A DNA stretch of 64,000 bases from Actinomycetota bacterium. GTDB taxonomy: Bacteria; Actinomycetota; Actinomycetes; S36-B12; CAIYMF01. The DNA is taken from positions 62,001 to 126,000 of the forward strand of contig JAPLAU010000012.1 of the NCBI GenBank assembly GCA_026393115.1, given 5' to 3'. The position numbers were made by a program, and so were the translations under genes. Below the pieces are notes generated by a model. It ran no database searches. It saw only the letters and a list, made by a program, of their open reading frames with translations, and was not told the origin of the DNA. Below, piece after piece: positions 24,016-43,082 of the stretch (position 1 is its first letter; each line of letters starts with the position of its first letter).

Positions 24016-24672
24016 TCAGCGAGTCCACTTTCGCACGTAGTCGGGCACGGGCTGGTCGGTCACAAACTCATCGGAAACGGGTTCGCCCAAGACTTCGCGA
24101 ATGGGAACGTGACCGCCCCACGCTGGCCACGTCTCGTCACCCTCAGCCTCTTCGGGGCCACCCTCTCCGACTTTGACTGAACACTCTTCGAGCGAGAGTG
24201 CCAGCACGAGTGTGGCTGCGGTTTCCTTCTTAGTGGGAGGACGAATATCGTCCCAGCGATCGGGAAGAAGGTGATCGCTGATGACTCTTAGCGCCCGGTC
24301 CTTCTCCTCGCCTTTGAGCACCACACACGATCCGAGGACCATTACCGAGCGGTAATTGATGCTCGACTCAAACGCACTGCGCGCGAGGACGAGTCCGTCG
24401 ATCAGCGTGACGGTCAGACAGGTGGAGTCACCCGTAGCGAGTCCCCGAAAGAGGCGAGATGCGGTGGAACCATGAAAGAGAACTCGATCGCCATCGCGTG
24501 CGTAAGCGACGCTCACCACGTACGGCTGACCGTCAGTGACGACAGCTACATGTGCGACGAGGCCCGCGTCGAGTATCGCGTTGAGCACGTTGCGATCGAC
24601 GACGGTCTTGTCGGCGAGCCGCCGTACGCGTGTGCGTTCGGTAGAACCAGGTGCGGGCAGTTCGTTGCTCAT
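24016..24672 (-). CDS. FMN-binding split-barrel protein (pyridoxamine 5'-phosphate oxidase family)
   Basis: A 218-residue flavin-reductase/PNPOx-like beta-barrel: GLVAHVAVVTDGQPYVVSVAYARDGDRVLFHGS, SRLFRGLATGDSTCLTVTLIDGLVLARSAFESSINYRSVMVLG. This layout is common in small proteins annotated as NimA or PNPOx-like. The C-terminal third is acidic and ends in RKWTR. Its ATG overlaps the aminotransferase stop (ATGA) and its stop abuts the oxidase ATG. Because both neighbours are PLP- or flavin-dependent amine enzymes, a role in cofactor supply or in detoxifying an imine or aldehyde is possible, but nothing in the sequence proves it. Confidence 0.75.
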   Translation of the reverse strand: MSNELPAPGSTERTRVRRLADKTVVDRNVLNAILDAGLVAHVAVVTDGQPYVVSVAYARDGDRVLFHGSTASRLFRGLATGDSTCLTVTLIDGLVLARSAFESSINYRSVMVLGSCVVLKGEEKDRALRVISDHLLPDRWDDIRPPTKKETAATLVLALSLEECSVKVGEGGPEEAEGDETWPAWGGHVPIREVLGEPVSDEFVTDQPVPDYVRKWTR

Positions 24673-26066
24673 AGAATCGTCGACGCCTCGGTGAGTACCG
24701 AACGCAAGATCTGTTCGATCTCATCGAACCCGGACTGGTCCATGATCAGCGGGGGTGAGATTTGAATCACCGGGTCGCCGCGGTCGTCGGCGCGGCAGTA
24801 GAGACCGGCGTCGAACAATGCCTTGGACATGAAGCCGCGCAGCAGGCGCTCGGATTCGTCGTCGTCGAACGTTTCTTTAGTGACCTTGTCCTTGACGAGT
24901 TCGATTCCGTAAAAGAATCCGGCACCGCGAACGTCTCCGACAATCGGCAGGTCACGCAACTTCGACAAGGTCGACATGAAGGCGCCCTCGTTATCGCGCA
25001 CATGCTGGTTGATGCCCTCGCGTTCGAAGATGTTGAGGTTCGCGACAGCGACGGCCGCCGAGACGGGGTGACCCCCAAAGGTGTATCCATGAGCGAAGTA
25101 GTTCGTTCCGTGTGCGAAGGGTTCGAACAGGCGATCGCTGACAATCATCGCGCCGATGGGGGCGTATCCCGAACTCAATCCCTTGGCGCAGGTGATGATG
25201 TCGGGTGTCACGCCGAATCGGTTCATCGCGAACATGTCGCCGATACGTCCGAATGCGCAGATGGTCTCGTCTGCGACGAAGAGTACGTCGTACTGATCGC
25301 AGATCTCGCGGACGCGTTCGAGATAGCCAGGTGGGGGAGTGAAACATCCCCCGGAGTTCTGTACCGGTTCGAGGAAGACGGCGGCAACTGTCTCGGGTCC
25401 TTCAAACTCGATCGCTTCGGCGATGCGATTAGCGGCCCACTGACCGAATGCGTACTCGTCGTCGGCGTGTTCTTCTGCGCGGTAGAAGTTCGTGTTCGGA
25501 ACTTTGTGCGCACCGGGCACGAGAGGTTCAAAGAACTTCTTAGCATCGGGAATGCCGGTAATCGACAAGGCTCCCTGCGGGGTGCCGTGGTACGCCACAT
25601 TGCGACTGATCACCTTGTGCTTCATCGGCTTGTTAGTGAGCTTGAAGTACTGTTTGGCCAACTTCCATGCCGATTCAACAGCCTCACCGCCACCGGTGGT
25701 GAAGAAGACACGGTTCAGGTCGCCGGGTGCGTAGTTTGCCAACATCTCTGCGAGTTCGATCGCCTTGGGGTGTGCGTACGACCACAGCGGGAAGTAGGCG
25801 AGTTGCGACATCTGCTTGGCTGCGGCCTCGGCAAGTTCGGTGCGCCCGTGTCCCAGTTGCACGGTGAACAGGCCAGCCAGGGCGTCGATGTAACGCTTGC
25901 CCGAGTCGTCGTAGATGTAACAGCCGTCACCGCGCACGATGACTGGAACATGACCGCCTTGCTCGTACACGGAGTGGCGGGTGAAGTGCATCCAGAGGTG
26001 ATCGCGTGCCGTTTCGGCGAGCAGGTCGGCGCCGGGCTCACTGACGTATTGAGGCGTGGTGGTCAT
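24669..26066 (-). CDS. class III omega-aminotransferase (putrescine/beta-alanine-pyruvate type)
   Basis: PLP enzyme, 465 residues: FTTGGGEAVESAWKLAKQYF (phosphate pocket), ISRNVAYHGTPQGALSITG, VFLEPVQNSGGCFTPPPGYL, FVADETICAFGRIGDMFAM and the Schiff-base lysine in CAKGLSSGYAPIGAM. The ETICAFGR and TNYFAHGYTFGGHP words are typical of putrescine/beta-alanine:pyruvate aminotransferases. It probably converts beta-alanine and 3-aminoisobutyrate, the products of the neighbouring pyrimidine operon, into semialdehydes for MmsA; putrescine is the alternative. It overlaps lrp upstream (ATGA) and the FMN gene downstream. Confidence 0.85.
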   Translation of the reverse strand: MTTTPQYVSEPGADLLAETARDHLWMHFTRHSVYEQGGHVPVIVRGDGCYIYDDSGKRYIDALAGLFTVQLGHGRTELAEAAAKQMSQLAYFPLWSYAHPKAIELAEMLANYAPGDLNRVFFTTGGGEAVESAWKLAKQYFKLTNKPMKHKVISRNVAYHGTPQGALSITGIPDAKKFFEPLVPGAHKVPNTNFYRAEEHADDEYAFGQWAANRIAEAIEFEGPETVAAVFLEPVQNSGGCFTPPPGYLERVREICDQYDVLFVADETICAFGRIGDMFAMNRFGVTPDIITCAKGLSSGYAPIGAMIVSDRLFEPFAHGTNYFAHGYTFGGHPVSAAVAVANLNIFEREGINQHVRDNEGAFMSTLSKLRDLPIVGDVRGAGFFYGIELVKDKVTKETFDDDESERLLRGFMSKALFDAGLYCRADDRGDPVIQISPPLIMDQSGFDEIEQILRSVLTEASTIL

Positions 26067-26536
26067 CGTGTTCCCCAGGTGTAGATCTGCTTGCGCAGTT
26101 GAAGGTAGATGAATGTCTCTGTGTGACTAACCCCAGCGACGTTCCGGATCTTGTTGTTGAGCGTTTCGAGCAAGTGCTCGTCGTCTTCGCACACAACCTC
26201 GGCAAGCAGGTCGTAGCTGCCGGCGGTGATCACCAGGTAGTCGACTTCAGGGAAGCGTTCAATCTCGTCTGCCGCCCGCACCAAGTCGCCGGTCACGCGG
26301 ATACCAATCATGGCCGCTCGTGGAAAACCGACCTGCATGGGGTCGGTGACCGCCACCACTTGCATGACGCCCATATCGATCAGACGCTGCACTCGCTGCC
26401 GCACCGCGGCCTCGGAAAGTCCGACGGCCCGACCGATCGCCGAATATGGTCGACGTCCGTCTTGCTGAAGCTGCTCGATGATGGCCCGAGAGACGTCATC
26501 AAGACCGCTGGAGGTGGGCCGATCTCGCGTGGGCAT
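26063..26536 (-). CDS. Lrp/AsnC family regulator
   Basis: Helix-turn-helix at about 12-60 (DVSRAIIEQLQQDGRRPYSAIGRAVGLSEAAVRQRVQRLIDMGVM), then a RAM ligand/oligomerisation domain (VTDPMQVGFPRAAMIGIRV, EVDYLVITAGSYDLLAEVVC, THTETFIYLQ-like end). From ATG 26536 it is 157 residues, the family norm; in-frame sequence further upstream is low complexity and overlaps repeats. GGAGG lies only one base before the ATG, which is unusually close. It overlaps the aminotransferase gene and probably controls this operon in response to an amino acid. Confidence 0.87.
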   Translation of the reverse strand: MPTRDRPTSSGLDDVSRAIIEQLQQDGRRPYSAIGRAVGLSEAAVRQRVQRLIDMGVMQVVAVTDPMQVGFPRAAMIGIRVTGDLVRAADEIERFPEVDYLVITAGSYDLLAEVVCEDDEHLLETLNNKIRNVAGVSHTETFIYLQLRKQIYTWGTR

Positions 26537-26691
26537 TCCTCCATGGTGCGCGACGAAGAGCCACTTTGGCAAGTGAATCAGTGGCAAATCGGTCAATTCG
26601 GCATGGAATCCGCAGTTTACCTTCGTATTCGCTGCGGGCCCGCGAGTTGTCGGTACTTCGACCCAGCTTCGGCGCATCAGGTCTTTCTCGA

Positions 26692-26751
26692 CTCGTGCTT
26701 CTTCGGTCAAGGGGTGCCCATCCGGGGCTTCTTCGGTCAAGGGGTGCCCAT
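26692..26751 (-). repeat. two-copy 30-bp repeat upstream of lrp
   Basis: A perfect 25-bp direct repeat (26697-26721 and 26727-26751) with 30-bp period. Read on the minus strand each copy contains TTGACCGAAGAAGC preceded by GGGCACCCC, and the last copy continues into GAGTCGAGA. The same arrangement is found at 2427-2490 on the plus strand, so this is a dispersed element rather than a local slip. In this orientation TTGACC could serve as a -35 box. Confidence 0.75.
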
Positions 26752-26757
26752 GGATGT

Positions 26758-26800
26758 GGGGGGGGGATGCGGGGGCGGATGCGGGGGCGGGATGTCTGGG
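26758..26800 (+). repeat. G-rich 12-bp tandem repeat, G-quadruplex-like
   Basis: GGATGCGGGGGC occurs twice in tandem (26765-26776 and 26777-26788). G-runs of 9, 5, 5, 3 and 3 bases lie within 43 bases on the plus strand, enough for a quadruplex. It sits in the 321-base gap 26537-26857 between lrp and the importer gene. That gap also holds the 30-bp repeat and the terminator below, and no gene. Confidence 0.75.
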
Positions 26801-26808
26801 TGGATGCA

Positions 26809-26844
26809 GGCGGGCGCCCACCCCGTGAGGGATGGACGCCCGCC
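26809..26844 (-). terminator. strong terminator of the pyrimidine degradation operon
   Basis: GGCGGGCG (26809-26816) pairs with CGCCCGCC (26837-26844), and the stem continues inwards with wobbles to about 16 bp around a four-base loop. It begins 13 bases after the stop of the substrate-binding protein gene. No T-run, but the stability is high. Confidence 0.75.
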
Positions 26845-26857
26845 TGGCGTACTGGAG

Positions 26858-28048
26858 TTACTTGCCGCCCTCAGCGAGGACGACGGTCTGCGGAGCGAAG
26901 CTGGTGCCGTTGACGTCGGCGCCTTCCGCCTTGAGCTGGTCGAGCGCCTTCTGTGCGTACGTGTTGTCGTACGCACCCTTCTCGGGCTCAGCCTTGAGCA
27001 GTCCCGTTGACGTTGCGACAGCAACGGTGCGGGCCCAGTCAGCTTCCTGAACCAGACCAATGCCACCGGGCGACGGCCAGATCAACTTGTTGACCTCGTT
27101 GAGCTGCCACTCCTGGTGGGACTTGCCCAATGTCGGGCCGGCCTTGAGAACGATGTCAACACACGGCTGGAAGTTGTCGCGGCAGTAGGCCCATCCGGCC
27201 ATTGCACCCTTGAGCAGGCGAACGGAGGTGTCCTGGTAGGCCGGGTCACTCGTCAACTTCTCGGTGTTGGCCCAGATCGAGTCCTGAAGCATCGCGGTGC
27301 CAACGTCGTTCCAGTTGATGACGCCGATTTCTTCAGGGGTGTAGAGCTTGCCGGTCTTCGGGTTCATGGTCTCGAGAACCTGTGCGTACTCGTTGTACGT
27401 CATCGCCTGAGCTGCGTCGATCTGGCCGGCGAGGAGTGCCGACTCGTCGAACTGCTGCTGGATGAGGTCCTTGGGACCGGGGTTGGTGACGCCGGCCTTG
27501 GTGAGTCCGGCGAGAAGCTCGAACTCGTTTCCGTAGCCCCAGCTACCGACCTTCTTACCCGACAACTGCTCGGGCTTGGTGATGTCGTTATTGGCCTTCA
27601 GCGAGATCTGGAGAGTTCCGGAACGCTGGTAGATCTGGCCGATGTCGGTGATACCGGCACCTTCTTGGCGCGATGCGAGGGCCTTGGGCACCCACGCGAT
27701 GGCGAAGTCGACAGCGCCGGTGGCGAGCTGAGTCTGCGGCACGATGTCGACCGCGCCCTCGACGATGGTGACGTCAAGGCACTCCTTCTCCCACAGGCCT
27801 TGGTCCTTGGCTGCGTAGTAACCCGCGAATTGAGCCTGGGCAACCCACTGCAACTGCAACTTGACCGGTGTCAGGCTGGCGCAGGCCGTTGCCGACGGCG
27901 ACGCTGCGGACTCTGATGCCGAGGCGCTCGCTGAACCCGAGGCCGACGCGGCACTACTGGCCGTTCCGCTGCCAGAGCCGCCGCAGGCGGCGAGCAGCAA
28001 TGCCGAGGTGGCGGCAACCGCGGCCACTCCCCATGTGCTTTTCCTCAT
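26858..28048 (-). CDS. ABC importer substrate-binding lipoprotein, NMT1/THI5 family
   Basis: Signal peptide with lipobox LLAAC (C22), a Ser/Ala-rich linker (about 25-55), then an NMT1/THI5-like domain: VKLQLQWVAQAQFAGYYAAKDQGLW, QLATGAVDFAIAWVPKAL, KVGSWGYGNEFELLAGL. Members of this group bind thiamine-precursor or other pyrimidines. Linkage to dihydropyrimidinase and beta-ureidopropionase argues for uptake of uracil/thymine, dihydropyrimidines or hydantoins. ATG 28048 follows GGAAGGA. Last gene of an operon that runs leftwards from 35594; the 97-base gap before it may give it separate expression. Confidence 0.85.
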   Translation of the reverse strand: MRKSTWGVAAVAATSALLLAACGGSGSGTASSAASASGSASASASESAASPSATACASLTPVKLQLQWVAQAQFAGYYAAKDQGLWEKECLDVTIVEGAVDIVPQTQLATGAVDFAIAWVPKALASRQEGAGITDIGQIYQRSGTLQISLKANNDITKPEQLSGKKVGSWGYGNEFELLAGLTKAGVTNPGPKDLIQQQFDESALLAGQIDAAQAMTYNEYAQVLETMNPKTGKLYTPEEIGVINWNDVGTAMLQDSIWANTEKLTSDPAYQDTSVRLLKGAMAGWAYCRDNFQPCVDIVLKAGPTLGKSHQEWQLNEVNKLIWPSPGGIGLVQEADWARTVAVATSTGLLKAEPEKGAYDNTYAQKALDQLKAEGADVNGTSFAPQTVVLAEGGK

Positions 28049-28145
28049 CTGCACTGTCCTTCCTCGATGCGCAAGCGCACCTCGTTCACGATCCACGAGC
28101 CGGCTGACTGGTGGAGATTCATCGGTGGAACAGGGAAGTTAAGGG

Positions 28146-28973
28146 TCATCGTCTCGCGTCTGCGCGCTCCCACGGTATGAATGTACGTTCCAAGACGACA
28201 ACGATTGCGTAAAGCACGATGCCGAGCAGTGCGGCCATCAGCACCGCGGCCCAAGCGCGGTCGTACCGGGAAAGCCCTGCCGACTGCGTGATGATTGATC
28301 CGAGAGTGCCCTGCTGGCCGCCGAAATACTCAGCCACGATTGCCGCGATCACCGCCAGCGAGGACGCAACCTTGAGTGACGTGAAGAAGAAAGGCAGCGC
28401 ATTGGGCAGGCGCACCTCGCGCAAAATGGCCCAGTCGCCAACGCCGTAGGTGTGCATGAGTTCGATTTGCACGTTTTGCACCTCGAGTAATCCTCGCGCG
28501 GTGTTGATGAACACCGGGAAGATCACGACTGACACCACCACGCATTGCTTGGCGGTGGCATCGGTCGCGCCGAACCACTTGAAGTAGATGGGCGCGAGGG
28601 CAACGATCGGTGTCGCCGCGAGGGCGGCGGCCATCGGGGTGAGGGCGTCGGCCATGAAGTGAAAGCGAGTGCAGAGCAAGGCCAGAGCAACGGCAATGAT
28701 GACACCGACGATCAAACCAGACACTGCGACGTAACCGGTGCGTTTGGTTCCTTCCAGGATGTCAGCCCACGATGTGCTGAGTGCGGCGATGATCGATGAG
28801 GGACGCGGGATGAGGAACTTCTGAATGTTGAAGACCCGCACCAAGACTTCCCAGGCAACCACCGCGACAACTCCGACGATGAGCGGAGGTATGAGCGAGC
28901 GCCCTCGTCCGGGATTGGTCGACGGAGTCTTCGGTTTAGGCGCCTGCGTCTGGGGCGCTTCAACGGTGCTCAC
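28146..28973 (-). CDS. ABC importer permease (SsuC/TauC-like)
   Basis: 275 residues with about six membrane spans and the cytoplasmic loop that contacts the ATPase (GVGDWAILREVRLPNALPFFFTSLKV, the EAA motif). The N-terminal 28 residues are Pro/Thr/Lys-rich and cytoplasmic. The GTG start overlaps the stop of the ATPase gene (GTGA). It probably forms a heterodimer with the permease at 29791-30744, which is less usual for this transporter type, where one permease gene often suffices. Confidence 0.87.
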   Translation of the reverse strand: MSTVEAPQTQAPKPKTPSTNPGRGRSLIPPLIVGVVAVVAWEVLVRVFNIQKFLIPRPSSIIAALSTSWADILEGTKRTGYVAVSGLIVGVIIAVALALLCTRFHFMADALTPMAAALAATPIVALAPIYFKWFGATDATAKQCVVVSVVIFPVFINTARGLLEVQNVQIELMHTYGVGDWAILREVRLPNALPFFFTSLKVASSLAVIAAIVAEYFGGQQGTLGSIITQSAGLSRYDRAWAAVLMAALLGIVLYAIVVVLERTFIPWERADARR

Positions 28974-29794
28974 GAAATGTCCACCGAGTTCGAGCCGGTC
29001 ACAGCCGGCGCTGGTGCACCGCGCAGAGCTTCGCGCACTGTGGTGATCGAAGCGAAGAAGGTCGGATCTTCGCGGGTGTCTTCATTGCGCTCACCGAGTG
29101 CGACAGGAATGACGTCAGTGATCTGGCCAGGGCGGGCGGACATCACGACGACGCGGTCGCTGAGATACACCGCCTCAGGAATGGAGTGCGTCACGAAAAT
29201 GACCGTCGCGCCAGTCTCGGCGCAGATGCGCACCAACTCTCCCTGCATCCGTTCGCGCGTCATTTCATCCAACGCACCAAATGGCTCATCCATGAGTAGC
29301 AACCCCGGTGAAGCGGCCAGCGCACGCGCGATCGCCACGCGCTGCTGCATGCCGCCCGAAAGTTCCCACGGACGCATCGCACCGAAGTCCGCTAGGTGTA
29401 CGAGATCGAGCAATTCACTCGAGCGCGTCTGCCTGCGGGCCTTGTTCCACTTCATTAACTCAAGTGGGAGTTCAATATTGGCCGAAACGGTGCGCCAATC
29501 GAACAGGCCGGCCTGCTGAAAAGCCATACCGTAATCGTGGTCAAGTCGCGCCTGTCGGGGGTCTTTGCCGTTGACGCGCACCGCGCCCGAGGTCGGGGTC
29601 TCAAGATCTCCGACGATGCGCATGAGCGTTGACTTGCCGCAACCAGAGGGACCAATCAGCGAGATGAACTCCCCGGCCTGCACTGTGAGATCAATGTCGG
29701 TGAGTGCGGTGACCTCGTTAGGCCGCCCGCCGTTGAACACCATTCCGACCCCCTGAATCTCAATGGCGGGGGTAGTGGTGTCGGCGGTGGTCAT
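28970..29794 (-). CDS. ABC importer ATP-binding protein
   Basis: Nucleotide-binding subunit, 274 residues: Walker A GPSGCGKST near residue 49, Q-loop FQQAGLFDW, signature LSGGMQQRVAIARAL, Walker B LLLMDEPFGALD, switch His in VTHSIPEAVYLSDRVVVMS. This is the TauB/SsuB pattern. It is coupled by four-base overlaps to the permease genes on both sides. Confidence 0.9.
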   Translation of the reverse strand: MTTADTTTPAIEIQGVGMVFNGGRPNEVTALTDIDLTVQAGEFISLIGPSGCGKSTLMRIVGDLETPTSGAVRVNGKDPRQARLDHDYGMAFQQAGLFDWRTVSANIELPLELMKWNKARRQTRSSELLDLVHLADFGAMRPWELSGGMQQRVAIARALAASPGLLLMDEPFGALDEMTRERMQGELVRICAETGATVIFVTHSIPEAVYLSDRVVVMSARPGQITDVIPVALGERNEDTREDPTFFASITTVREALRGAPAPAVTGSNSVDIS

Positions 29795-30744
29795 CGGGCC
29801 TCCCGGGGACGGTTACGCATGAGCAGAAGGTCAGTCACGTTAATGAGTGCGACGAATAGGACACCCAAGAGGGCGGCTCCGATCACGACGCAATATAGCC
29901 GCGATGGATCGCTGAGATACTGAGCGGAGTAGTCGATCAGGAGTCGACCGAGGCCACCGCGCACGCCCGCTGAAATCTCACCGACAATCGCGCCGACCAC
30001 CGAGGCGGTCGCAGCAAGTTTGAGTGCGGGGATGAGGAAGGGCACAGCAGCAGGCATGCGCAACTTCCACAACGTGGCATTACCTGAGGCGGCATTAGTG
30101 CGCATGAAGTCGAGAGCAAGCGGGGTGGGCGACTTGAGGCCACGTAATCCGTTGACTGCAACGGGGAAGAAGGTGAGGTAGGTCGCGATCAGTGCCACCG
30201 ACATCCACTGTTGCCACGAGAACAGAGGAACCTTGATCTGGTTACCAAACGCAACAACCACCGGGGCAAGAGCGATCAGCGGCACAGTCTGAGACACGAT
30301 CACCCAGGGCATCACGCCGCGCTCGAGCCAGCGAGTGCGCAGCATGATCAGCGCAATGGCCATTCCGATGATGATGCCGATGATGAATCCGACGAAGGCC
30401 TCTCGGAAGGTGAAGAGCATCGCCTCGAGAATCCACATCGTGAGGTTCTTCGGGTCACCAGTGCGCTGGGGTTGGCCAAAGCGCAACACGATGTCCATCA
30501 CGGGTGGCATCGTGACGTCGTCGGTCGAAAAGGGCAGAGGCATTGAGGTGAAAGGCCACGTACCTCCGGTGGCGTGCCCCATTGCCTTCACGGCCGTGTA
30601 GATCAGCGCCACCGCCACAATGCCGCCGATGATAAACACCGTGCGACGGGCGAATCTGCTCAATGCCGAGGGACCAGAGCGCCCCGAATTCGAGCGCGCG
30701 GGATCTACCGGCTTCTGAAGAAACGTGGGGGCAGTGGTCGCCAT
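29791..30744 (-). CDS. ABC importer permease, second subunit
   Basis: 317 residues with about seven hydrophobic segments and the EAA-type loop (ASGNATLWKLRMPAAVPFLIPALKL). Longer than its partner at 28146 because of an N-terminal cytoplasmic stretch and an additional periplasmic loop before the core. ATG 30744 overlaps the stop of the LLM oxidoreductase gene by one base, so transport and enzyme genes are translated as one unit. Confidence 0.87.
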   Translation of the reverse strand: MATTAPTFLQKPVDPARSNSGRSGPSALSRFARRTVFIIGGIVAVALIYTAVKAMGHATGGTWPFTSMPLPFSTDDVTMPPVMDIVLRFGQPQRTGDPKNLTMWILEAMLFTFREAFVGFIIGIIIGMAIALIMLRTRWLERGVMPWVIVSQTVPLIALAPVVVAFGNQIKVPLFSWQQWMSVALIATYLTFFPVAVNGLRGLKSPTPLALDFMRTNAASGNATLWKLRMPAAVPFLIPALKLAATASVVGAIVGEISAGVRGGLGRLLIDYSAQYLSDPSRLYCVVIGAALLGVLFVALINVTDLLLMRNRPREAR

Positions 30745-31775
30745 CAGCTCTTGGCAGCTACGTGGTCGCGGATGGCTGGGATGATCTTCTGTCCGTACGT
30801 CGCGAGAACTTCATCTTGGGCGTCGTGCTGGAGGTAGATCGCGAACTGATCGACTCCGAGTGCCTTCAACTGTTCAAGTTTGGCCACGTGCTGCTCGACT
30901 GTGCCGATGATGCAGAAGCGATCGACAATCGCGTCGGGAACGAACTCTGTGTGCGTGTTTCCGGCGCGGCCGTGCTCGTTGTAGTCGTAGTCCTGACGGC
31001 CCTTGATGTACTCGGTCAGATCCTGCGGAACCGCTGCCCCCTGATCGCCGTAGCGGGCAACGATTTCTGCCACGTGGTTTCCGACCATGCCGCCAAACCA
31101 CCGGCATTGGTCGTAGGCGTGCGCTTGTTGTTCGGCGGAACCATCGGTGATGTAGGCCGGAGCCGCCACACAAATGGAGATGTCGTCGGGGTTGCGCCCG
31201 GCTGCGGCGGCTGCCGAACGAACGGCGGCGATGCTCCACTCAGCGATCGATAGGTCGGCGAGCTGAAGAATGAACCCGTCAGCCACTTCGCCAGCAAGGG
31301 CAAGAACCTTGGGGCCATAGGCCGCCACCCATACGGGTGTGCGCGACGTGGGGTTCCAAGGGAATCGCAGCATGCTGCCCTTGTACTCAACCTCGCGACC
31401 ATTGGCCAACCCGCTGATGACGCCTACTGACTCACGAAGATCGGCAACGGTGACCGGCTTGCCATTGGTGACGCGTACGGCTGAGTCACCTCGCCCGATA
31501 CCGCAGACAGTGCGGTTTCCGTACATCTCATTGAGGGTGGCGAAGACCGATGCCGTGACGGTCCAGTCGCGCGTTGCGGGATTAGTCACCATGGGTCCAA
31601 CGACGATATTGCGGGTCGCCGCCAACATCGCGCTGTGCACGACGTACGGCTCCTCCCACAGCAGATGCGAGTCGAAAGTCCACGCGTGGGAGAAGCCCCA
31701 TTGCTCGGCTTGACGCGTGAGTTCAATCACTCGTGCTGCGGGGGGATTGCACTGAAGAACGATGCCGATATCCAT
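30744..31775 (-). CDS. LLM-class flavin/F420-dependent oxidoreductase (TIGR03842-like)
   Basis: Luciferase-like TIM-barrel, 343 residues, opening MDIGIVLQCNPPAARVIEL with WTFDSHLLWEEPYV, VGPMVTNPATRDWTVTASVFATLNEMYG and GIGRGDSAVRV. The last motif resembles the F420 site of methylenetetrahydromethanopterin reductase relatives. It is most like a group of predicted F420-dependent enzymes often found with pyrimidine catabolism genes (recalled, not searched). It lies between mmsA and the importer genes in the operon. No dihydropyrimidine dehydrogenase gene is in the window, so this protein might supply the ring-reduction step; a monooxygenase role is the alternative. GGAGGATTC precedes the ATG. 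Confidence 0.82.
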   Translation of the reverse strand: MDIGIVLQCNPPAARVIELTRQAEQWGFSHAWTFDSHLLWEEPYVVHSAMLAATRNIVVGPMVTNPATRDWTVTASVFATLNEMYGNRTVCGIGRGDSAVRVTNGKPVTVADLRESVGVISGLANGREVEYKGSMLRFPWNPTSRTPVWVAAYGPKVLALAGEVADGFILQLADLSIAEWSIAAVRSAAAAAGRNPDDISICVAAPAYITDGSAEQQAHAYDQCRWFGGMVGNHVAEIVARYGDQGAAVPQDLTEYIKGRQDYDYNEHGRAGNTHTEFVPDAIVDRFCIIGTVEQHVAKLEQLKALGVDQFAIYLQHDAQDEVLATYGQKIIPAIRDHVAAKS

Positions 31776-31786
31776 GAATCCTCCGA

Positions 31787-33274
31787 TTAGCGGGTGCGCG
31801 GGAAGCCGAGATCAACTGACGATGTTGAAGGATCGGGCCAACGCGAGGTGACCACTTTGGTGCGTGTGTAGAAGTCGACGCCGGATGGTCCGTAGATCGA
31901 CGTGTCGCCGAAAATCGAGGCCTTCCAGCCGCCAAAACTGTAGTACGACACCGGAACCGGAATCGGCACGTTGACACCGACCATGCCCACACTCACATCG
32001 AACTGAAACTGACGGGCCGCGCCACCATCACGAGTGAAGATCGCGGTGCCGTTTCCGTACTTGTTCGAGTTGATCAGTGCGAGCCCTTCGTCGTAAGTGT
32101 CGACGCGAACGACGGTGAGAACAGGTCCGAAGATTTCGTCGTCATACACCGACATACCCGGGGCCGCGTGATCGACGAGAGAGACGCCGAGGAAGAAGCC
32201 TTGGGCAGGAAGGTCGCCTTCGCGACCATCAACGACAACCGTCGCTCCTTGGCTGGCAGCCGATGCGAGGTAGCCGGCGACCTTGTCGCGGTGCTCGGCG
32301 GTAATGAGCGGACCCATCTCTGCAGTGGGATCGGTGCCCGGGCCAACACGCACCTTGGGAAGTCGGGCGGCGATTGCCTCAACCAGCGGATCGGCAACGG
32401 AGCCCACGGCGACCACCACTGAGACGGCCATGCACCGCTCGCCAGCCGAACCGTACGCTGCGCTGACCGCGGAGTCGGCGGCCAGATCAACGTCAGCGTC
32501 GGGGAGTACGAGCATGTGGTTCTTAGCGCCGCCGAGAGCCTGAACGCGCTTGCCGTTGGCAGTTCCGGTGGAGTACACGTACTGCGCAATCGGCGTTGAC
32601 CCCACGAAACTCACCGCGGCGATGTCGGGGTGTTCGAGGATGCGGTCGACAGCCACCTTGTCACCCATGAGGACGTTGAAGACGCCGTCGGGGAGGCCCG
32701 CTTCCTTGAGCATCTGCGCGATCAGGAGGGCAACGGACGGGTCTTTCTCACTGGGCTTGAGGATGAACGTGTTTCCGCAGGCGATGGCATTGGCGAACAT
32801 CCACATCGGAACCATGGCTGGGAAGTTGAACGGCGTGATGCCGGCCACAACCCCGAGCGGCTGACGAATCGAGTAAACGTCAACTCCGGTGGACACCTGC
32901 TCGCTGTAGCCGCCCTTGAGCAAAGGTGCGATACCGCAGGCGAACTCGATGTTCTCGATTCCGCGAGCCAATTCACCTGCGGCATCAGAGGGAACCTTGC
33001 CGTGCTCAATGCTGACCAGTTCTGAGATCTCAGCGCGGCGCGAGTCGACGATCTGGCGGAACTTGAACATCACCTCGGTGCGCCGTGATACCGAGGCTGA
33101 GCGCCACGACTGGAAGGCCGTGAGCGCGGAAGCGACGGCGGCGTCAACCTCGTCGATGCTGGCCAGCGCGACTTCGGCCTGCACCTCACCGGTTGCCGGG
33201 TTGTAGACAGGGGATGTACGACCCGACGCGGAGGGACTTGAGGCCCCGTCGATCCAGTGGGTGATGGTGCGCAT
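31787..33274 (-). CDS. mmsA: CoA-acylating methylmalonate-semialdehyde dehydrogenase
   Basis: It converts malonate or methylmalonate semialdehyde to acetyl-CoA or propionyl-CoA with NAD+ and CoA. 495 residues with THWIDG, TPFNFPAMVPMWMFANAIACGNTFILKPSEKDP (the family-specific stretch), FVGSTPIAQYVY, the catalytic Cys in GSAGERCMAVS, and VGVNVPIPVPVSYYSFGGWKAS near the end. In this operon it closes the beta-alanine and 3-aminoisobutyrate branches of uracil and thymine degradation. AAGGAGACGATCA before the ATG is a good ribosome site. Confidence 0.93.
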   Translation of the reverse strand: MRTITHWIDGASSPSASGRTSPVYNPATGEVQAEVALASIDEVDAAVASALTAFQSWRSASVSRRTEVMFKFRQIVDSRRAEISELVSIEHGKVPSDAAGELARGIENIEFACGIAPLLKGGYSEQVSTGVDVYSIRQPLGVVAGITPFNFPAMVPMWMFANAIACGNTFILKPSEKDPSVALLIAQMLKEAGLPDGVFNVLMGDKVAVDRILEHPDIAAVSFVGSTPIAQYVYSTGTANGKRVQALGGAKNHMLVLPDADVDLAADSAVSAAYGSAGERCMAVSVVVAVGSVADPLVEAIAARLPKVRVGPGTDPTAEMGPLITAEHRDKVAGYLASAASQGATVVVDGREGDLPAQGFFLGVSLVDHAAPGMSVYDDEIFGPVLTVVRVDTYDEGLALINSNKYGNGTAIFTRDGGAARQFQFDVSVGMVGVNVPIPVPVSYYSFGGWKASIFGDTSIYGPSGVDFYTRTKVVTSRWPDPSTSSVDLGFPRTR

Positions 33275-33317
33275 TGATCGTCTCCTTGACTTAGGTGCAG
33301 TGATACTAGATCGGGTA

Positions 33318-34736
33318 CTAGATCAGGTACTGGGACAGGCCACGCGGGACGAACTGGCCGTGACCGGCGTGGCCGTGGAACTCATCGTTGGCGACGACAA
33401 CCGAGCCACGCGAAATGACGGTGTCGACCTTGCCGTCGATCTCGTAACCCTCCCACGCGGAGTGATCCATGTTCATGTGGTGGGTCTTCTCGAGTCCGAT
33501 GCTGGTGTGACCAGCGGGATCGTAGATCACGATGTCGGCGTCGGCGCCTGGTGCGATGACTCCCTTGCGACCATAAAGACCGAACATGCGGGCCGGCGTC
33601 GTCGAACACAACTCGACCCAGCGCTCAACCGAGATGCGACCGTCAACGACGCCTTGGTAAATGAGGTCCATGCGGTGCTCAACCGAGCCAATTCCATTGG
33701 GAATCTTGGAGAAGTTGCCGACGCCAAGTTCCTTTTGCTCCTTGAAACAGAAGGGGCAGTGGTCGGTGCTGATAACCGACAGGTCGTTGGTGGCCAAGTA
33801 GCGCCACAGTTCCTCTTGGTGGCCCTCAGCGCGCGATCGCAACGGGGTCGAGCACACCCACTTGGCTCCTTCGAAACCTGCCGCCGCGAGGTTCTCTTCC
33901 AGTGAGAGGTACAGGTACTGCGGGCACGTTTCGCCGAAGACGTTCAGGCCCTCGTTGCGCGCAATGGCAAGAGTTCCGACGGCCTGCTTGGCGCTCATAT
34001 GCACGATGTAGAGCGGTGCGCCAGTCAGTCGCGCCAGCATGATCGCGCGATGCGTGGCTTCTTCCTCGGTTTCCCACGGACGCGTGAGCCCGTGGTAAAC
34101 GGGATCTGTTTCACCGCGGGCCAATGCCTGTGCCACCAGCACGTCGATCGCAATGCCGTTTTCGGCATGCATCATGATCATCGCGCCATTGTCAGACGCT
34201 TTCTGCATCGCTTTGAGAATCTGGCCGTCATCAGAGTAAAAGACTCCGGGGTAGGCCATGAAGAGTTTGAAGCTGGTGATGCCCTCAGCGACGAGTTCGT
34301 CCATCGCCTTGAGCGAATCGTCGTCGACGCCACCGATGATCTGGTGGAACGCGTAGTCGATCGCGCAGTTGCCGCGGGCCTTCTCGTGCCACGCCGCCAA
34401 GCCATCCTGAACTCTCGCGCCTTGAACTTGAACGGCGAAGTCAATGATCGTCGTCGTGCCACCCCAAGCGGCAGCGCGCGTTCCGGTCTCAAACGTGTCG
34501 GACGCGAAGGTGCCGCCGAAGGGCAACTCCATGTGGGTGTGGCAGTCAATACCGCCGGGAATGACGTACTTGCCCGCGGCATCAATCACCACGTCGGCCG
34601 AGGCGGCGAGGTCAACCCCGAGCGACGTATCGCCCGGGGTGACCAGTGCCACGATTTTTTCGCCGTCGACCAGTACATCCGCCTGTGTGCGCCCCGTGGG
34701 CGACACGACTGTTCCGTTCTTAATCAGGGTGGTCAC
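33318..34736 (-). CDS. hydA: dihydropyrimidinase (D-hydantoinase)
   Basis: It opens dihydrouracil/dihydrothymine rings, or hydantoins, to N-carbamoyl-beta-amino acids. Amidohydrolase fold, 472 residues: metal ligands in GGIDCHTHMELPF, the carboxylated lysine in GITSFKLFMAYPG, His in MMHAENG and IVHMSAKQ, Asp in ISTDHCPF. GTG 34736 has GGAGG five bases upstream. It is second in the operon, 21 bases after beta-ureidopropionase. The substrate-binding loops cannot separate hydantoin from dihydropyrimidine by eye; the neighbours favour pyrimidines. Confidence 0.92.
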   Translation of the reverse strand: MTTLIKNGTVVSPTGRTQADVLVDGEKIVALVTPGDTSLGVDLAASADVVIDAAGKYVIPGGIDCHTHMELPFGGTFASDTFETGTRAAAWGGTTTIIDFAVQVQGARVQDGLAAWHEKARGNCAIDYAFHQIIGGVDDDSLKAMDELVAEGITSFKLFMAYPGVFYSDDGQILKAMQKASDNGAMIMMHAENGIAIDVLVAQALARGETDPVYHGLTRPWETEEEATHRAIMLARLTGAPLYIVHMSAKQAVGTLAIARNEGLNVFGETCPQYLYLSLEENLAAAGFEGAKWVCSTPLRSRAEGHQEELWRYLATNDLSVISTDHCPFCFKEQKELGVGNFSKIPNGIGSVEHRMDLIYQGVVDGRISVERWVELCSTTPARMFGLYGRKGVIAPGADADIVIYDPAGHTSIGLEKTHHMNMDHSAWEGYEIDGKVDTVISRGSVVVANDEFHGHAGHGQFVPRGLSQYLI

Positions 34737-34757
34737 GTCAGCCTCCGTGTCAGTCGT

Positions 34758-35594
34758 TCAGGGGCGAACTAGGTCGTCGTAGGCGTCGGGGCGACGATCG
34801 CGGTAGAACGCCCAACGCTCGCGCACCTCGAACAGTAGGTCAAGATCCAAGTCGCGGATGATGAGCTCCTCCTTGTAAGGGTCTCCCTTCTCCCCGACGT
34901 ACGAACCCTCGGGATCGACGAAGTACGACTGCCCGTAGAAGTCGTCGTCGCCGAGTTCCTCGATACCGACGCGGTTGATCGCACCGACGTAATACTCGTT
35001 CGCGACCGCGGCTGCGGGCTGCTCAATGCTCCACAGGTACTGCGACAGTCCGCGCGACGTTGCCGACGGATTGAACACGATTTGGGCTCCATTGAGGCCA
35101 AGAGCGCGCCAACCTTCGGGGAAGTGGCGGTCGTAACAGATGTACACCCCCACCTTGCCGACTGCGGTGTCGAACACCGGGTACCCACCGTTGCCGGGAC
35201 GGAAGTAGAACTTCTCCCAGAAACCGCTCACGTGAGGAATGTGCTGCTTGCGGTACTTGCCGAGGTAGCTGCCATCGGCATCGACCACCGCCGCCGTGTT
35301 GTAGAGGAATCCAGGACCGTCGAGCTCGTACATGGGAAGAATCATCACCATGCCCAGTTCCTTGGCCAGGGCCTGGAAGCGTTCGGTGGTAGGACCGGGA
35401 ATCGACTCGGCGTATTCGTAGTAGGCCTTGTCTTGCACCTGGCAGAAGTAGGGGCCGTAGAAGAGTTCTTGGAAACACATCACCTGGGCACCTTGAGCGG
35501 CGGCCTCTCGGGCCTTCTGCTCATGTACCTGGATCATGGACTCCTTGTCCCCGGTCCATGGGGTCTGCAAGAGAGCTGCCCTGACAATCGGCAT
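34758..35594 (-). CDS. beta-ureidopropionase / N-carbamoyl amidohydrolase (nitrilase superfamily)
   Basis: It releases CO2 and NH3 from N-carbamoyl-beta-alanine. The catalytic triad is Glu in CFQELFYGPYF, Lys in YRKQHIPH, Cys in YICYDRHFPEGWRALGL, followed by FNPSATSRGLSQYLW. From ATG 35594 (GAGGA at five bases) it is 278 residues; an in-frame GTG 12 bases earlier is less likely. This is the first gene of the long leftward operon and is divergent from the MocR regulator. The sequence pattern also fits N-carbamoylputrescine amidase, which would connect to the agmatine genes at 46-47 kb, but the hydA linkage argues for pyrimidine products. Confidence 0.88.
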   Translation of the reverse strand: MPIVRAALLQTPWTGDKESMIQVHEQKAREAAAQGAQVMCFQELFYGPYFCQVQDKAYYEYAESIPGPTTERFQALAKELGMVMILPMYELDGPGFLYNTAAVVDADGSYLGKYRKQHIPHVSGFWEKFYFRPGNGGYPVFDTAVGKVGVYICYDRHFPEGWRALGLNGAQIVFNPSATSRGLSQYLWSIEQPAAAVANEYYVGAINRVGIEELGDDDFYGQSYFVDPEGSYVGEKGDPYKEELIIRDLDLDLLFEVRERWAFYRDRRPDAYDDLVRP

Positions 35595-35830
35595 TGCCGT
35601 CCTCACTTCCGCTCAGGCCGCCGAAGGTTCGGCTGGCTCGCAGTGAACTTGTGTCGTGAACTCAATCTTGTACCTCGTGGTGGATCTTTTCGCTTTGTGC
35701 CCCACACACTAGGCAACCCGCGATACGTTACGCAGCGATTTGAACATTGTTTCGGGCAGGTCGCAGCGCCGCGCAGTCTGCTAGGCGATGTGGGTGCGGT
35801 TCGGCTGGGCCCTGAGGGGAGGAGAAGACC
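35595..35830. promoter_or_regulatory. divergent control region with 13-bp-spaced direct repeat
   Basis: The 236-base gap between the pyrimidine operon and the MocR gene contains GTGAACT twice in direct orientation (35643-35649 and 35656-35662), 13 bases apart. MocR regulators such as GabR and PdxR bind direct repeats, so this is a candidate site. No clear -10/-35 pair stands out. GGGAGGAGAAGACC is the ribosome site of the MocR gene. Confidence 0.35.
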
Positions 35831-37162
35831 ATGGAGCGCGTTGCTGCATCCATTGGTGACCGTTCACCTCAGGGAATTGCCGCCGCACTTGGTCGGCTGA
35901 TCGGTTCAGGGGACATTGCGGCCGGTGAACGACTCCCGACGGTCCGAGATCTTGCGCGGGAGCTGGGAGTCAGTCCGGGCACCGTCGCCGAGGCGTGGCG
36001 AATGCTCACAGTGGTAGGGGCGATCGAGGCGCGAGGGCGAGCGGGCACTTTCGCGCTGCGCACGTCCGGCCTGGCGCATCGGTATCGCAGCTTGGCGTCC
36101 GGCGGTGGTGCATTAGCTCTCGATCTCTCCACGGGTATTCCGGACCCGGCCTTACTTCCAGAACTGGGGCCACTGCTGCGCCGCGTGGGGGGCAAGGCAT
36201 TGTCGGGAAGTTATCTCGATCGGCCGGTGCTGCCCCAGTTGGAAGAACTGCTGGTCAACTCGTGGCCTTTTGCCCCTGGTGGTTTTACCGTCGTCGACGG
36301 CGCTCTTGATGCACTGTCACGGGTGGCAGACCTGATCGTTGGGTTCGGAGATCGGGTGCTCATCGAGAACCCTGCATTTCCTCCACTCATCGACCTGCTG
36401 GAGCGTCAGGGCGCCGAACTCATCGCACTTCCCCTCGACAGCGAAGGTATTGTGCCGAGCGCACTGTCCGACGCATTGCAACTGCGACCGTCGACTCTGT
36501 TCTTGCAGCCGAGGGCGCACAACCCGACGGGCATCAGCATGAGTGAGCCACGGGCCCGTGAACTTTCACTTCTGTTGCGCGATCATCCGATTACCGTTGT
36601 TGAAGACGATCACTGTGGCGACATTTCGATTGCCGACGATGTGAGTCTGGGTCGGTACCTTGATAACCGCGTCATCCACATCCGCAGCTTTTCGAAGTCC
36701 CACGGACCTGACTTACGCATTGCTGCTGTGGGTGGACCCGCCGAACTTATCGATCGGCTGGTTGAGCGACGGCTTCTCGGCCCTGGGTGGACCAGTCGCA
36801 TGGTGCAGTCGCTGCTGGTCGAGTTGCTCACCGATCCTGACTCGATTGATGTCGTCGCGCAGGCACGCCGTACCTACGCGCAGCGGCAACGTGAACTGGC
36901 GGGTGCACTCGCATCGTGTGGGCTGCCGCTGGCAGCTGGCGACGGCATCAATCAGTGGGTGCCGGTCGTTGACGAGCGGTTGGCACTCGTACGGGCGGCC
37001 GCCGCGGGCATTGGTGTTGCTCCGGGTGCCCCCTTCGTACTACCGGGGCTCGCCGGCGATCACGTGCGTGTCACAGTCGGGCTGATCTCCTCTGGGGCGG
37101 AGCATGTGGCGCAGTGCCTTGCAGCTGCGGCACTGCCTGCGCCACAGTCACGGGCGGTGTAA
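35831..37162 (+). CDS. MocR-type transcription factor (GntR domain + aminotransferase-like domain)
   Basis: Residues 1-75 are a GntR winged helix (GIAAALGRLIGSGDIAAGERLPTVRDLARELGVSPGTVAEAWRML). Residues 95-440 are a fold-type I aminotransferase domain with the PLP lysine in SFSKSHGPDLRIA, PRAHNPTG-type word QPRAHNPTGIS and VVEDDHCGDI. Such proteins sense PLP plus an amino compound (GabR: GABA; PdxR: PLP). It sits between the divergent pyrimidine operon and the co-directional aldehyde dehydrogenase/polyamine genes, and could regulate either; GABA or beta-alanine as effector is inferred. Confidence 0.87.
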   Translation: MERVAASIGDRSPQGIAAALGRLIGSGDIAAGERLPTVRDLARELGVSPGTVAEAWRMLTVVGAIEARGRAGTFALRTSGLAHRYRSLASGGGALALDLSTGIPDPALLPELGPLLRRVGGKALSGSYLDRPVLPQLEELLVNSWPFAPGGFTVVDGALDALSRVADLIVGFGDRVLIENPAFPPLIDLLERQGAELIALPLDSEGIVPSALSDALQLRPSTLFLQPRAHNPTGISMSEPRARELSLLLRDHPITVVEDDHCGDISIADDVSLGRYLDNRVIHIRSFSKSHGPDLRIAAVGGPAELIDRLVERRLLGPGWTSRMVQSLLVELLTDPDSIDVVAQARRTYAQRQRELAGALASCGLPLAAGDGINQWVPVVDERLALVRAAAAGIGVAPGAPFVLPGLAGDHVRVTVGLISSGAEHVAQCLAAAALPAPQSRAV

Positions 37163-37296: not shown

Positions 37297-38790
37297 ATGA
37301 CCGAGCGAATCGCCGCCCAGCGAATCGGTGGGGTTGTCGCCGAAGGCACCTCGGGTGACGACTTTAATGTCGTCAACCCCGCCGACGGATCAGTAGTCGC
37401 CACCCTTGAGTTGGCCTCGCCTGCCGATGTGAACGCCGCTGTCGAGGCGGCCGTGCACGCGCAGAAGGAGTGGGGAAGTGCCACTCCGGCAGAGCGATCG
37501 GCAGCCCTCCATCGACTCGCGGGCATTCTCGAGGCGAAGGCGGAGGAGTACGCACAGACCGAAACCCTTCAAACGGGAAAGCCGATCAAGCTCAGTCGTG
37601 AGTTCGATGTACCCGGATCGATCGACAACGTTGCGTACTTTGCAGGAGCAGCGAGGCACCTGCAAGGCTCTGCCGCCGCTGAGTGGGATGGCGCACACAC
37701 GTCGATGATTCGTCGTGAGCCCGTGGGTGTGGTTGGTTCTATCGCGCCGTGGAATTACCCACTACAGATGGCCATGTGGAAGATTCTGCCGGCGATTGCT
37801 GCAGGCAACGCCATCGTGCTCAAGCCTTCAGAGATGACACCGCTCACGACCCTGATGCTCGCGGATGACTGCCTCGCCGCAGGTATTCCGGCCGGCGTGG
37901 TCAATGTCATCACCGGCGCCGGACCAGTGGCTGGCGAGGCGCTGGTGTCGCATCCAAGAGTTGGAATGGTGTCGTTCACCGGGTCGACTCCGGTAGGCCG
38001 TCGAGTTGCCAGTCTGGCGATCGACGGGCTGAAGCGGGTGCACATGGAACTCGGCGGCAAGGCGCCGTTCGTCGTGTTTGACGATGCCGACCTCGAAGCC
38101 GCCGTGCACGGTGCGGTTGCCGCGAGTGTGATCAATTGCGGTCAGGACTGCACCGCTGCCACGCGCGCCTATGTGCAGCGTCCGCTCTATGCAGACTTCA
38201 TCGCCGGGGTAGCCGAGTTGATGGCCTCGATGCGAATCGGTGACCCGCGTGATGAGCACACCGATCTCGGACCGCTCATCAGTAAGCGTCAGCAGGAGCG
38301 AGTCGGAGGCTTTGTCGAACGCGCGGTTGCCGATGGTGCGCGAGTCGCAACTGGTGGGCGCATTCCCGCGACAACACCTGAGTCCGGTGCCTATTACGAG
38401 CCGACGCTCATTGTCGACGCCCGGCAGGATTCAGAGATCGTTCAACACGAGGTGTTCGGGCCGGTGCTCGTCGCCCTTCCCTTTGACAGTGATGACGAGG
38501 GCTTGAACCTCGCGAACGACACTCCTTATGGTCTGGCGGCTTCTGCCTGGACAACCGACGTCGTGCGGGCGCTGCGAGCGAGCCGCGAGATCACGGCGGG
38601 ATGTGTCTGGATCAACGATCACATCCCGATCGTGTCTGAAATGCCGCACGGGGGAGTGAAGGCGTCAGGCTTTGGCAAGGACATGAGTCCCTACTCCTTC
38701 GAGGAGTACACGATCGTCAAGCACGTGTCGATTGACACCGCCGGACTGGCGCGCAAGGACTGGCACCGCACCATCTTCGGCGATAGGTGA
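37297..38790 (+). CDS. gamma-aminobutyraldehyde dehydrogenase (aldehyde dehydrogenase family)
   Basis: It oxidises 4-aminobutyraldehyde (from putrescine) to GABA with NAD+. 497 residues: PWNYPLQMAMWKILPAIAAGNAIVLKPSE, MVSFTGSTPVGRRV, MELGGKAPFVVFDDADLEAAV, the nucleophile in NCGQDCTAATRAYVQ and the C-terminal GFGKDMSPYSFEEYTIVKHV, typical of PatD/YdcW-like enzymes. AGGAG precedes ATG 37297. Genes for PotD, A, B, C and an amine oxidase follow on the same strand, supporting the putrescine assignment. Betaine aldehyde or other omega-aminoaldehydes are alternatives. Confidence 0.85.
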   Translation: MTERIAAQRIGGVVAEGTSGDDFNVVNPADGSVVATLELASPADVNAAVEAAVHAQKEWGSATPAERSAALHRLAGILEAKAEEYAQTETLQTGKPIKLSREFDVPGSIDNVAYFAGAARHLQGSAAAEWDGAHTSMIRREPVGVVGSIAPWNYPLQMAMWKILPAIAAGNAIVLKPSEMTPLTTLMLADDCLAAGIPAGVVNVITGAGPVAGEALVSHPRVGMVSFTGSTPVGRRVASLAIDGLKRVHMELGGKAPFVVFDDADLEAAVHGAVAASVINCGQDCTAATRAYVQRPLYADFIAGVAELMASMRIGDPRDEHTDLGPLISKRQQERVGGFVERAVADGARVATGGRIPATTPESGAYYEPTLIVDARQDSEIVQHEVFGPVLVALPFDSDDEGLNLANDTPYGLAASAWTTDVVRALRASREITAGCVWINDHIPIVSEMPHGGVKASGFGKDMSPYSFEEYTIVKHVSIDTAGLARKDWHRTIFGDR

Positions 38791-38895
38791 CAGTCGGTTA
38801 CGCCGATCCCACCCCGAGTGACGTTTGCAGGCATAGGGTTGCTGTCAGAGTTGAACGTGTTCGCTTTCGCGAGCGCGAATCATAAGGAGAACCCC

Positions 38896-43079: not shown

Positions 43080-43082
43080 GCA

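Follow-up and report, generated by a model that had tools for sequence, protein, structure and literature searches.

How does a bacterium reduce the pyrimidine ring when it carries the later enzymes of reductive pyrimidine degradation and no dihydropyrimidine dehydrogenase (PreT-PreA, or PydA)? An operon in a 64,000-nucleotide stretch of DNA from an Actinomycetota bacterium (assembly GCA_026393115.1, contig JAPLAU010000012.1, positions 62,001 to 126,000 of the forward strand; hereafter, the window) raises this question. The initial annotation had proposed that an LLM-family protein encoded in the operon may reduce uracil with the cofactor F420H2. Genome-wide and local gene linkage and a Mer-like predicted fold support this proposal: the operon probably serves reductive pyrimidine degradation, with the LLM protein acting as an F420H2-dependent uracil/thymine reductase in place of PreT-PreA.

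An operon, and a genome in which PreT-PreA was not found

The operon lies on the minus strand, runs from 35606 to 26858, and holds all eight genes expected from the initial annotation. In operon order these are as follows.

34758 to 35606, minus strand: putative beta-ureidopropionase (nitrilase fold, CN_hydrolase; PF00795, E 7e-67; PDB relatives CG3027-PA and beta-ureidopropionase)
33318 to 34736, minus strand: dihydropyrimidinase HydA (TIGR02033, 546.1 bits; cut-off, 393.25)
31787 to 33274, minus strand: MmsA, CoA-acylating (methyl)malonate-semialdehyde dehydrogenase (TIGR01722, 711.1 bits; cut-off, 448.5)
30744 to 31775, minus strand: LLM protein, proposed F420H2-dependent uracil/thymine reductase (TIGR03842, 561.6 bits; cut-off, 295.45)
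29791 to 30744, minus strand: ABC permease (weak SaoP/SsuC-like matches; 1-bp overlap with the LLM gene)
28970 to 29794, minus strand: ABC ATPase (SaoA/PhnT/NtrCD/TauB-like; none above cut-off among the matches listed)
28146 to 28973, minus strand: ABC permease (SaoP/SsuC-like, under cut-off)
26858 to 28096, minus strand: substrate-binding lipoprotein, NMT1/THI5 family (PF09084, 98.1 bits)

Successive genes are spaced by 21, 43, 11, -1, -4, -4, and 49 bp, as expected of a single operon. Dihydropyrimidinase and beta-ureidopropionase, the latter recognized by homology and context, occur together in it, as the reductive pathway requires. No NCBIfam equivalog matches the nitrilase-fold protein above its cut-off (the best, AguB, scores 244.9 of 410.25 bits), and its best PDB relatives are CG3027-PA (2vhh, E 2e-55), N-carbamoylputrescine amidohydrolase (5h8i, 2e-53), and beta-ureidopropionase (8pt4 and 6ftq, 3e-50); the name beta-ureidopropionase is thus a probable assignment drawn from gene context and homology.

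PreT and PreA are absent from the operon, as had been claimed, and the search was extended to the host genome, an assembly of 34 contigs (95.3% complete) to which the gene absences reported here refer. The PreA model (NF006183) found no match at E 1e-60. The DHO_dh family matches three proteins in the genome, namely class-1 PyrD, FabK, and a DHODH-like protein of PRK07565, and Fer4_20 matches GltD alone; no dihydropyrimidine dehydrogenase was thus found outside the operon either. An oxidative pathway of the RutA type was likewise rejected, since no RutA was found (the best match to TIGR03612 is 23 bits, against a cut-off of 498.3). The LLM protein itself gives no match to the RutA model at E 0.001; it carries PF00296 alone and has neither the DHO_dh nor the iron-sulfur domains of PreA/PydA. 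Genes for F420 synthesis, which the proposal calls for, are found in the genome: FbiA (TIGR01819, 381.6 bits), FbiB (NF009810, 606.1 bits), and FbiC (TIGR03551, 533.7 bits), from which the host is predicted to make F420. A second CofD-family match, on contig C10, proved to be YvcK and was discarded as an F420 gene.

Co-occurrence across Actinomycetota

If the LLM protein works with HydA and F420, the three should be found in the same genomes. We examined an even draw of 226 Actinomycetota genomes, requested at 90% completeness. LLM scored above its cut-off in 49 genomes; CofE was found in 127, HydA in 70 (two further genomes below the cut-off were dropped), and PreA in 2. HydA is present in 48 of the 49 LLM genomes versus 22 of the 177 without LLM (Fisher p 1e-30), and CofE in 48/49 versus 79/177 (p 3e-13), p-values that ignore kinship among the genomes. 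Among the genomes with CofE, HydA accompanies LLM in 47 of 48 and occurs in 12 of the 79 that lack LLM (p 3e-22, with the same proviso). CofH was found in 42 of the 49, in 41 of them above cut-off. PreA is present in none of the LLM genomes. It is rare throughout the phylum: a larger draw, of 396 genomes, yielded only the two already found, and its absence from LLM genomes is therefore not evidence in itself. The check suggested in the initial annotation, whether this LLM clade and hydA occur together where preTA is missing, nonetheless gave a strongly positive result. If our reading is correct, the missing first step of pyrimidine catabolism is filled in about one-fifth of the sampled Actinomycetota (49/226), a phylum in which PreA is almost absent.

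Neighborhoods of the LLM gene

Local linkage was assessed at 83 loci carrying LLM, 80 from genomes and 3 from plasmids, by tblastn; gene calls made from open reading frames at relatives' loci often pick antisense frames. (Below, G and a number denotes a genome of the Actinomycetota set, and L and a number denotes an extracted locus.) HydA was detected at 72 of the 83 loci and a nitrilase-type enzyme at 63; PreA or PreT was detected by tblastn at none. Fifty-nine genome loci extend 5 kb or more upstream of LLM; in 58 of them, HydA and beta-ureidopropionase lie on the same strand within 5 kb, and in 37 of the 59 MmsA does so. A looser MmsA count of 64/83 loci takes in distant aldehyde dehydrogenases.

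In the 226-genome set, no more than 10 kb separates LLM from HydA in 38 of the 49 genomes. Eight of the remaining 11 were inspected (all but G106, G135, and G031). In five genomes from one family (G194, G208, G115, G184, and G084), an aminotransferase and an M20-type carbamoylase relative adjoin LLM; of these carbamoylases, those of G194 and G084 were scanned, and both pass TIGR01879. An NCS1 nucleobase:cation symporter, above cut-off, directly precedes LLM in the same two genomes, at 10 bp in G194 and 3 bp in G084. In G059 a nitrilase-type enzyme stands directly before LLM, in G044 MmsA is near it, and in G164 the contig is too short. LLM is thus found beside two unrelated kinds of beta-ureidopropionase and a base importer, which points to a link with the pathway, rather than to one inherited gene block.

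At 6099 to 9568 of L115 (G083, contig 142), the gene after HydA encodes an LLM protein that is distantly related (26% identity) and scores under the TIGR03842 cut-off. It is possibly a member of another clade tied to dihydropyrimidinase.

F420 genes beside LLM and plasmid-borne cassettes

A gene for F420 synthesis or reduction is present at 10 of the 36 genome loci that have 10 kb on both flanks. By their record titles, eight of these ten belong to Galbitalea, Naasia, or Agromyces, genera of one family, the Microbacteriaceae, and they are therefore not independent events. The cofD genes of L036, L069, and L084 and the Fgd gene of L050 score above cut-off; the cofD of L069 is transcribed divergently from the pyrimidine operon, with about 185 bp between them. 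L068 has a single, weak npdG match (40% identity), and five long open reading frames of L036 and L084, candidates for FbiB or FbiC, gave no match.

A separate case comes from Alphaproteobacteria. On the Leisingera caerulea plasmid NZ_CP081074, genes for HydA, a Zn hydrolase, an aminotransferase, and pntBA face a cofG-cofH-cofD-cofC-cofE-npdG-LLM run. LLM is also found on nine more Leisingera plasmids; the cassette gene order was read on NZ_CP081074 alone. On a Paracoccus alcaliphilus plasmid the cof-npdG-LLM run recurs in the same order, with an ABC transporter after it. In the Leisingera cassette, the transhydrogenase would supply NADPH, NpdG would use it to make F420H2, and LLM would then reduce the pyrimidine. 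In a broader reading, which we consider likely, TIGR03842 is an F420H2-dependent dihydropyrimidine dehydrogenase that is not homologous to PreA; in Actinomycetota it would be the enzyme by which reductive pyrimidine breakdown mainly begins, and in Rhodobacterales it would travel as a self-sufficient module with F420 synthesis, an NADPH:F420 reductase, and transhydrogenase, the module being drawn from one Leisingera plasmid and, in part, one Paracoccus plasmid. F420 would then have a definite function in Alphaproteobacteria, which would explain why F420 biosynthesis is encoded on an alphaproteobacterial plasmid.

Several other plasmids carry LLM genes. On Caballeronia sp. SBC2 plasmid pSBC2-6 (L111, 8001 to 11994), a fragment of a TIGR03842 gene lies beside a Zn hydrolase, ald, and a short pntB; this looks like the decayed remnant of a cassette related to the one in Leisingera. 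Plasmid 3 of Variovorax sp. PBL-E5 (L109, 7348 to 20915) encodes a different LLM protein, 31% identical to that of the window, with an allantoinase/dihydropyrimidinase-like amidohydrolase, a CN hydrolase, npdG, cofG-H-D-C-E, and an ABC transporter; this island is a candidate second F420 catabolic island with a cyclic-amide hydrolase. The plasmid-borne relatives of 28 to 35% identity include this Variovorax protein and others from haloarchaea, Rhodococcus, and Streptomyces NBC_01643. The haloarchaeal plasmid proteins were rejected as evidence on uracil, since their neighbors are acyl-CoA or hydantoinase/oxoprolinase-type genes; in L108, L110, and L112, LLM comes directly after the genes for hydantoinase/oxoprolinase A and B.

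Proposed pathway and the identity of the ring

In the pathway that we envisage, the ABC importer would take up a pyrimidine base or a close relative, and the LLM protein would reduce uracil or thymine by hydride transfer from F420H2 to C6 of the ring and protonation of C5, to give dihydrouracil or dihydrothymine. HydA would open the ring, the nitrilase-fold enzyme would strip the carbamoyl group, an omega-aminotransferase (an uncertain assignment, discussed below) would yield (methyl)malonate semialdehyde, and MmsA would convert the semialdehyde to acetyl-CoA or propionyl-CoA. The steps given to HydA, the carbamoyl-removing enzyme, the aminotransferase, and MmsA are known chemistry of their families.

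The LLM protein could be F420 dependent and act in such a pathway yet reduce a different ring, such as a 5-substituted pyrimidine, the thiamine pyrimidine, or an unsaturated hydantoin, in an operon that serves another cyclic ureide. The binding protein is NMT1/THI5-like, with a formylaminopyrimidine-binding protein among its weak PDB relatives; the description of PF02133 (NCS1) covers thiamine and allantoin carriers too, and the family includes hydantoin carriers; and the Variovorax plasmid pairs its different LLM with an allantoinase/dihydropyrimidinase-like enzyme (both below cut-off) and full F420 synthesis. We nevertheless regard another ring as unlikely. From what is known of the pathway, MmsA and the aminotransferase suit beta-alanine and beta-aminoisobutyrate, the products of uracil and thymine, and MmsA is a same-strand upstream neighbor of LLM at 37 of the 59 loci counted above. 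An operon for hydantoins exclusively, which the initial annotation had named as a competing possibility, is disfavored by MmsA, which by pathway knowledge would have no role there, as well as by the NCS1 symporter beside LLM in two relatives and by the Leisingera cassette.

Family and predicted structure of the LLM protein

The preferred reading, F420H2-dependent reduction of uracil or thymine, was also considered in light of the protein itself, a full-length member of TIGR03842 (F420_CPS_4043). The family model is listed as a hypothetical equivalog and names no function; if the reading is right, the family would gain one here. An AlphaFold model built with 27 sequences (mean pLDDT 83.5, pTM 0.86, weak at residues 231 to 280) has as its top Foldseek match Mer with F420 (8qpl, E 1.2e-22), and the best 21 rows are all F420 enzymes. 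Realignment with VIA-align, which re-ranks Foldseek's list and so leaves folds outside that list possible, gave Z scores of 34 to 35 for Mer, 32.7 for F420-dependent alcohol dehydrogenase, and 29 to 31 for FGD-type enzymes; the best 15 rows (Z 29.0 to 35.2) are all F420 enzymes, some of them apo or mutant forms. The best flavin monooxygenase scored 27.8 and RutA about 25. As modeled, the LLM fold is nearest to F420-dependent members.

These scores bear on a second alternative, in which the LLM protein would use flavin mononucleotide (FMN), with NAD(P)H or O2, in the manner of RutA and luciferase-like enzymes, and its link to F420 would be secondary. RutA has the same general fold and was crystallized with uracil (complex 6sgl, among the VIA-align rows), and CofH was not found in 7 of the 49 LLM genomes. 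The F420 enzymes are structurally closer, however; CofE is present in all LLM genomes except one, F420 genes stand beside LLM in two phyla, and, by pathway knowledge, a RutA-type product would not feed HydA. We therefore hold FMN dependence to be highly improbable. That another protein reduces the ring, for example the PRK07565 DHODH-like protein of the host (407.8 bits, without an assigned substrate), and that LLM is an accessory has a similarly slim chance of being right: a fungal DHODH-like family includes dihydrouracil oxidases, according to part of one report (PMC9585004), but tblastn at E 1e-15 finds no PRK07565 relative in the 83 LLM loci and 18 further regions, and LLM nearly always adjoins pathway genes.

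Mer (8qpl and 1z69) is the nearest solved fold, at 24 to 29% identity. We aligned its functional residues as given in part of the Mer report (PMC11094777). LLM retains the cis-peptide Val62 of Mer as Val63 and its Asp96 as Asp97, and has Gln171 at the carboxamide position; Mer residue 178 is Gln in the cited text (PMC11094777) and, by our count, Asn in the deposited sequence that was aligned. The two proteins differ in other respects. LLM scores 125.1 bits on the Mer model TIGR03555 (cut-off, 348.7), its family has an almost invariant WFGGMVGNHVA and YDY..HG region specific to it, and the catalytic Glu6 of Mer is Val6 in LLM. Among 93 aligned members, position 6 is Val in 85, Thr in 7, Cys in 1, and Glu in none, while Trp226, Phe227, Met230, Asn233, His234, Tyr263, Asp264, Tyr265, His268, and Cys288 are invariant. 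The catalytic acid of dihydropyrimidine dehydrogenase is a cysteine; it is a matter of speculation that a Cys or His of LLM could donate the C5 proton, which would parallel that enzyme.

Points that weigh against F420H2-dependent pyrimidine reduction

Several observations do not favor the assignment of LLM as an F420H2-dependent pyrimidine reductase. The replacement of Glu6 of Mer by Val means that the proton donor cannot be assigned from Mer. No NpdG above cut-off was found in the host genome (41.9 of 149.8 bits), where no Fgd search was made. The seven LLM genomes in which CofH was not found are G115, G168, G178, G194, G200, G206, and G224. Six of them have CofE; G115 lacks both, in an assembly of 220 contigs in which the LLM match ends at a contig edge. 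G206 is assembled as a single contig, in which the LLM match is broken between two frames. PreA is lacking too in 21 of the 22 HydA genomes without LLM: HydA without PreA is common in the phylum, and HydA there may mean hydantoinase. G196 has CofE yet carries PreA. Ten open reading frames from loci mostly without an ABC importer yielded no nucleobase transporter, and the annotation of the Paracoccus plasmid shows no dihydropyrimidinase, carbamoylase, or aminotransferase up to 12 kb from LLM. Finally, the literature searched contains no enzyme assay for the LLM family.

The split LLM match recurs in a second well-assembled genome (G206 C1:2193491-2194476 and G208 C1:121370-122355), and it reflects either sequencing error or gene decay.

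Relation to known systems

LLM and PreT-PreA would share the proposed reaction and the downstream enzymes, and in G196, which has no LLM above cut-off, a PreT-PreA-carbamoylase-HydA cluster places PreT-PreA with HydA and a carbamoylase relative where LLM stands elsewhere. They differ in fold, which is unrelated, in the DHO_dh and iron-sulfur domains that LLM lacks, and in the donor, proposed to be F420H2 for LLM and NAD(P)H for PreT-PreA. LLM would act like a dihydropyrimidine dehydrogenase without belonging to that family. RutA has an LLM fold and acts on uracil; it opens the ring oxidatively and, as noted, was not found in the host.

The NCBI note for TIGR03842 is reported to mention a neighboring dihydropyrimidinase in proteobacteria; if so, the association has been seen before, with no function given. 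The term "CPS_4043" is absent from the open literature searched, in which the name TIGR03842 itself was not a search term, and no paper there pairs cofactor F420 or "LLM class" with dihydropyrimidinase in its main text.

Three published cases, each taken from part of its source, invite comparison. In Chloroflexota uric acid clusters, a luciferase-family, putatively F420-dependent "yanthine" reductase has been proposed (PMC12507026); like LLM, it would be a luciferase-family replacement for another reductase (YgfK or the PF01180 reductase UacX) acting on a nitrogen heterocycle, and unlike LLM, it is putatively assigned to another substrate and pathway, the likeness being one of description. Disruption of SSGG-03002 (NpsU), a putative F420/FMN oxidoreductase, shows that it is needed for C5-C6 saturation of the uracil ring of mureidomycin, whereas in vitro assays gave no activity (PMC10714638); NpsU serves nucleoside antibiotic synthesis and is likened to LLM by description only. 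In Haloferax volcanii, the "luciferase family protein" HVO_A0295A is induced (log2 5.57) with L-alanine versus ammonium as the nitrogen source, uracil being present in both, together with dihydropyrimidinase (dpyS), beta-ureidopropionase (amaB2), mmsA, an aminotransferase, and an ABC transporter; in the corresponding part of the text, the study assigned no uracil reductase (PMC6801745). A 2021 review states, in the section concerned, that no F420H2-dependent reductase had been studied experimentally in bacteria outside Actinobacteria (PMC8498797).

If LLM is a uracil reductase, bacteria might also have in it a second type of enzyme able to reduce fluoropyrimidines.

Genes flanking the operon

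Three flanking genes may bear on the operon, the second and third being uncertain parts of the system.

35831 to 37162, plus strand: MocR-type regulator (GntR plus aminotransferase; PF00392 and PF00155), candidate regulator, divergent from the operon and 224 bp from it
26063 to 26821, minus strand: Lrp/AsnC regulator (PF13404 and PF01037), alternative start at 26536
24669 to 26066, minus strand: omega-aminotransferase (NF005102, 814.4 bits; cut-off, 574)

A relative of the MocR-type regulator is present at 28 of the 83 LLM loci. The longest open reading frame of the Lrp regulator begins 36 bp from the binding-protein gene; the likelier start is 26536, which would leave room for a separate promoter. 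The omega-aminotransferase that had been placed in the next operon is indeed encoded there; its part in the pyrimidine pathway is uncertain, since polyamine genes lie close by and the enzyme could serve polyamine rather than beta-alanine metabolism. On the same strand it is followed by genes for a pyridoxamine-phosphate-oxidase-like protein and a FAD oxidoreductase, and on the plus strand from 37297 stand genes for an aminobutyraldehyde dehydrogenase, a polyamine-type ABC system, and another FAD oxidoreductase. Polyamine-type genes and two DAO-family FAD oxidoreductases thus flank the operon (37297 to 44501, plus strand; 22627 to 24672, minus strand), probably as a polyamine-catabolism cluster that may own the omega-aminotransferase.

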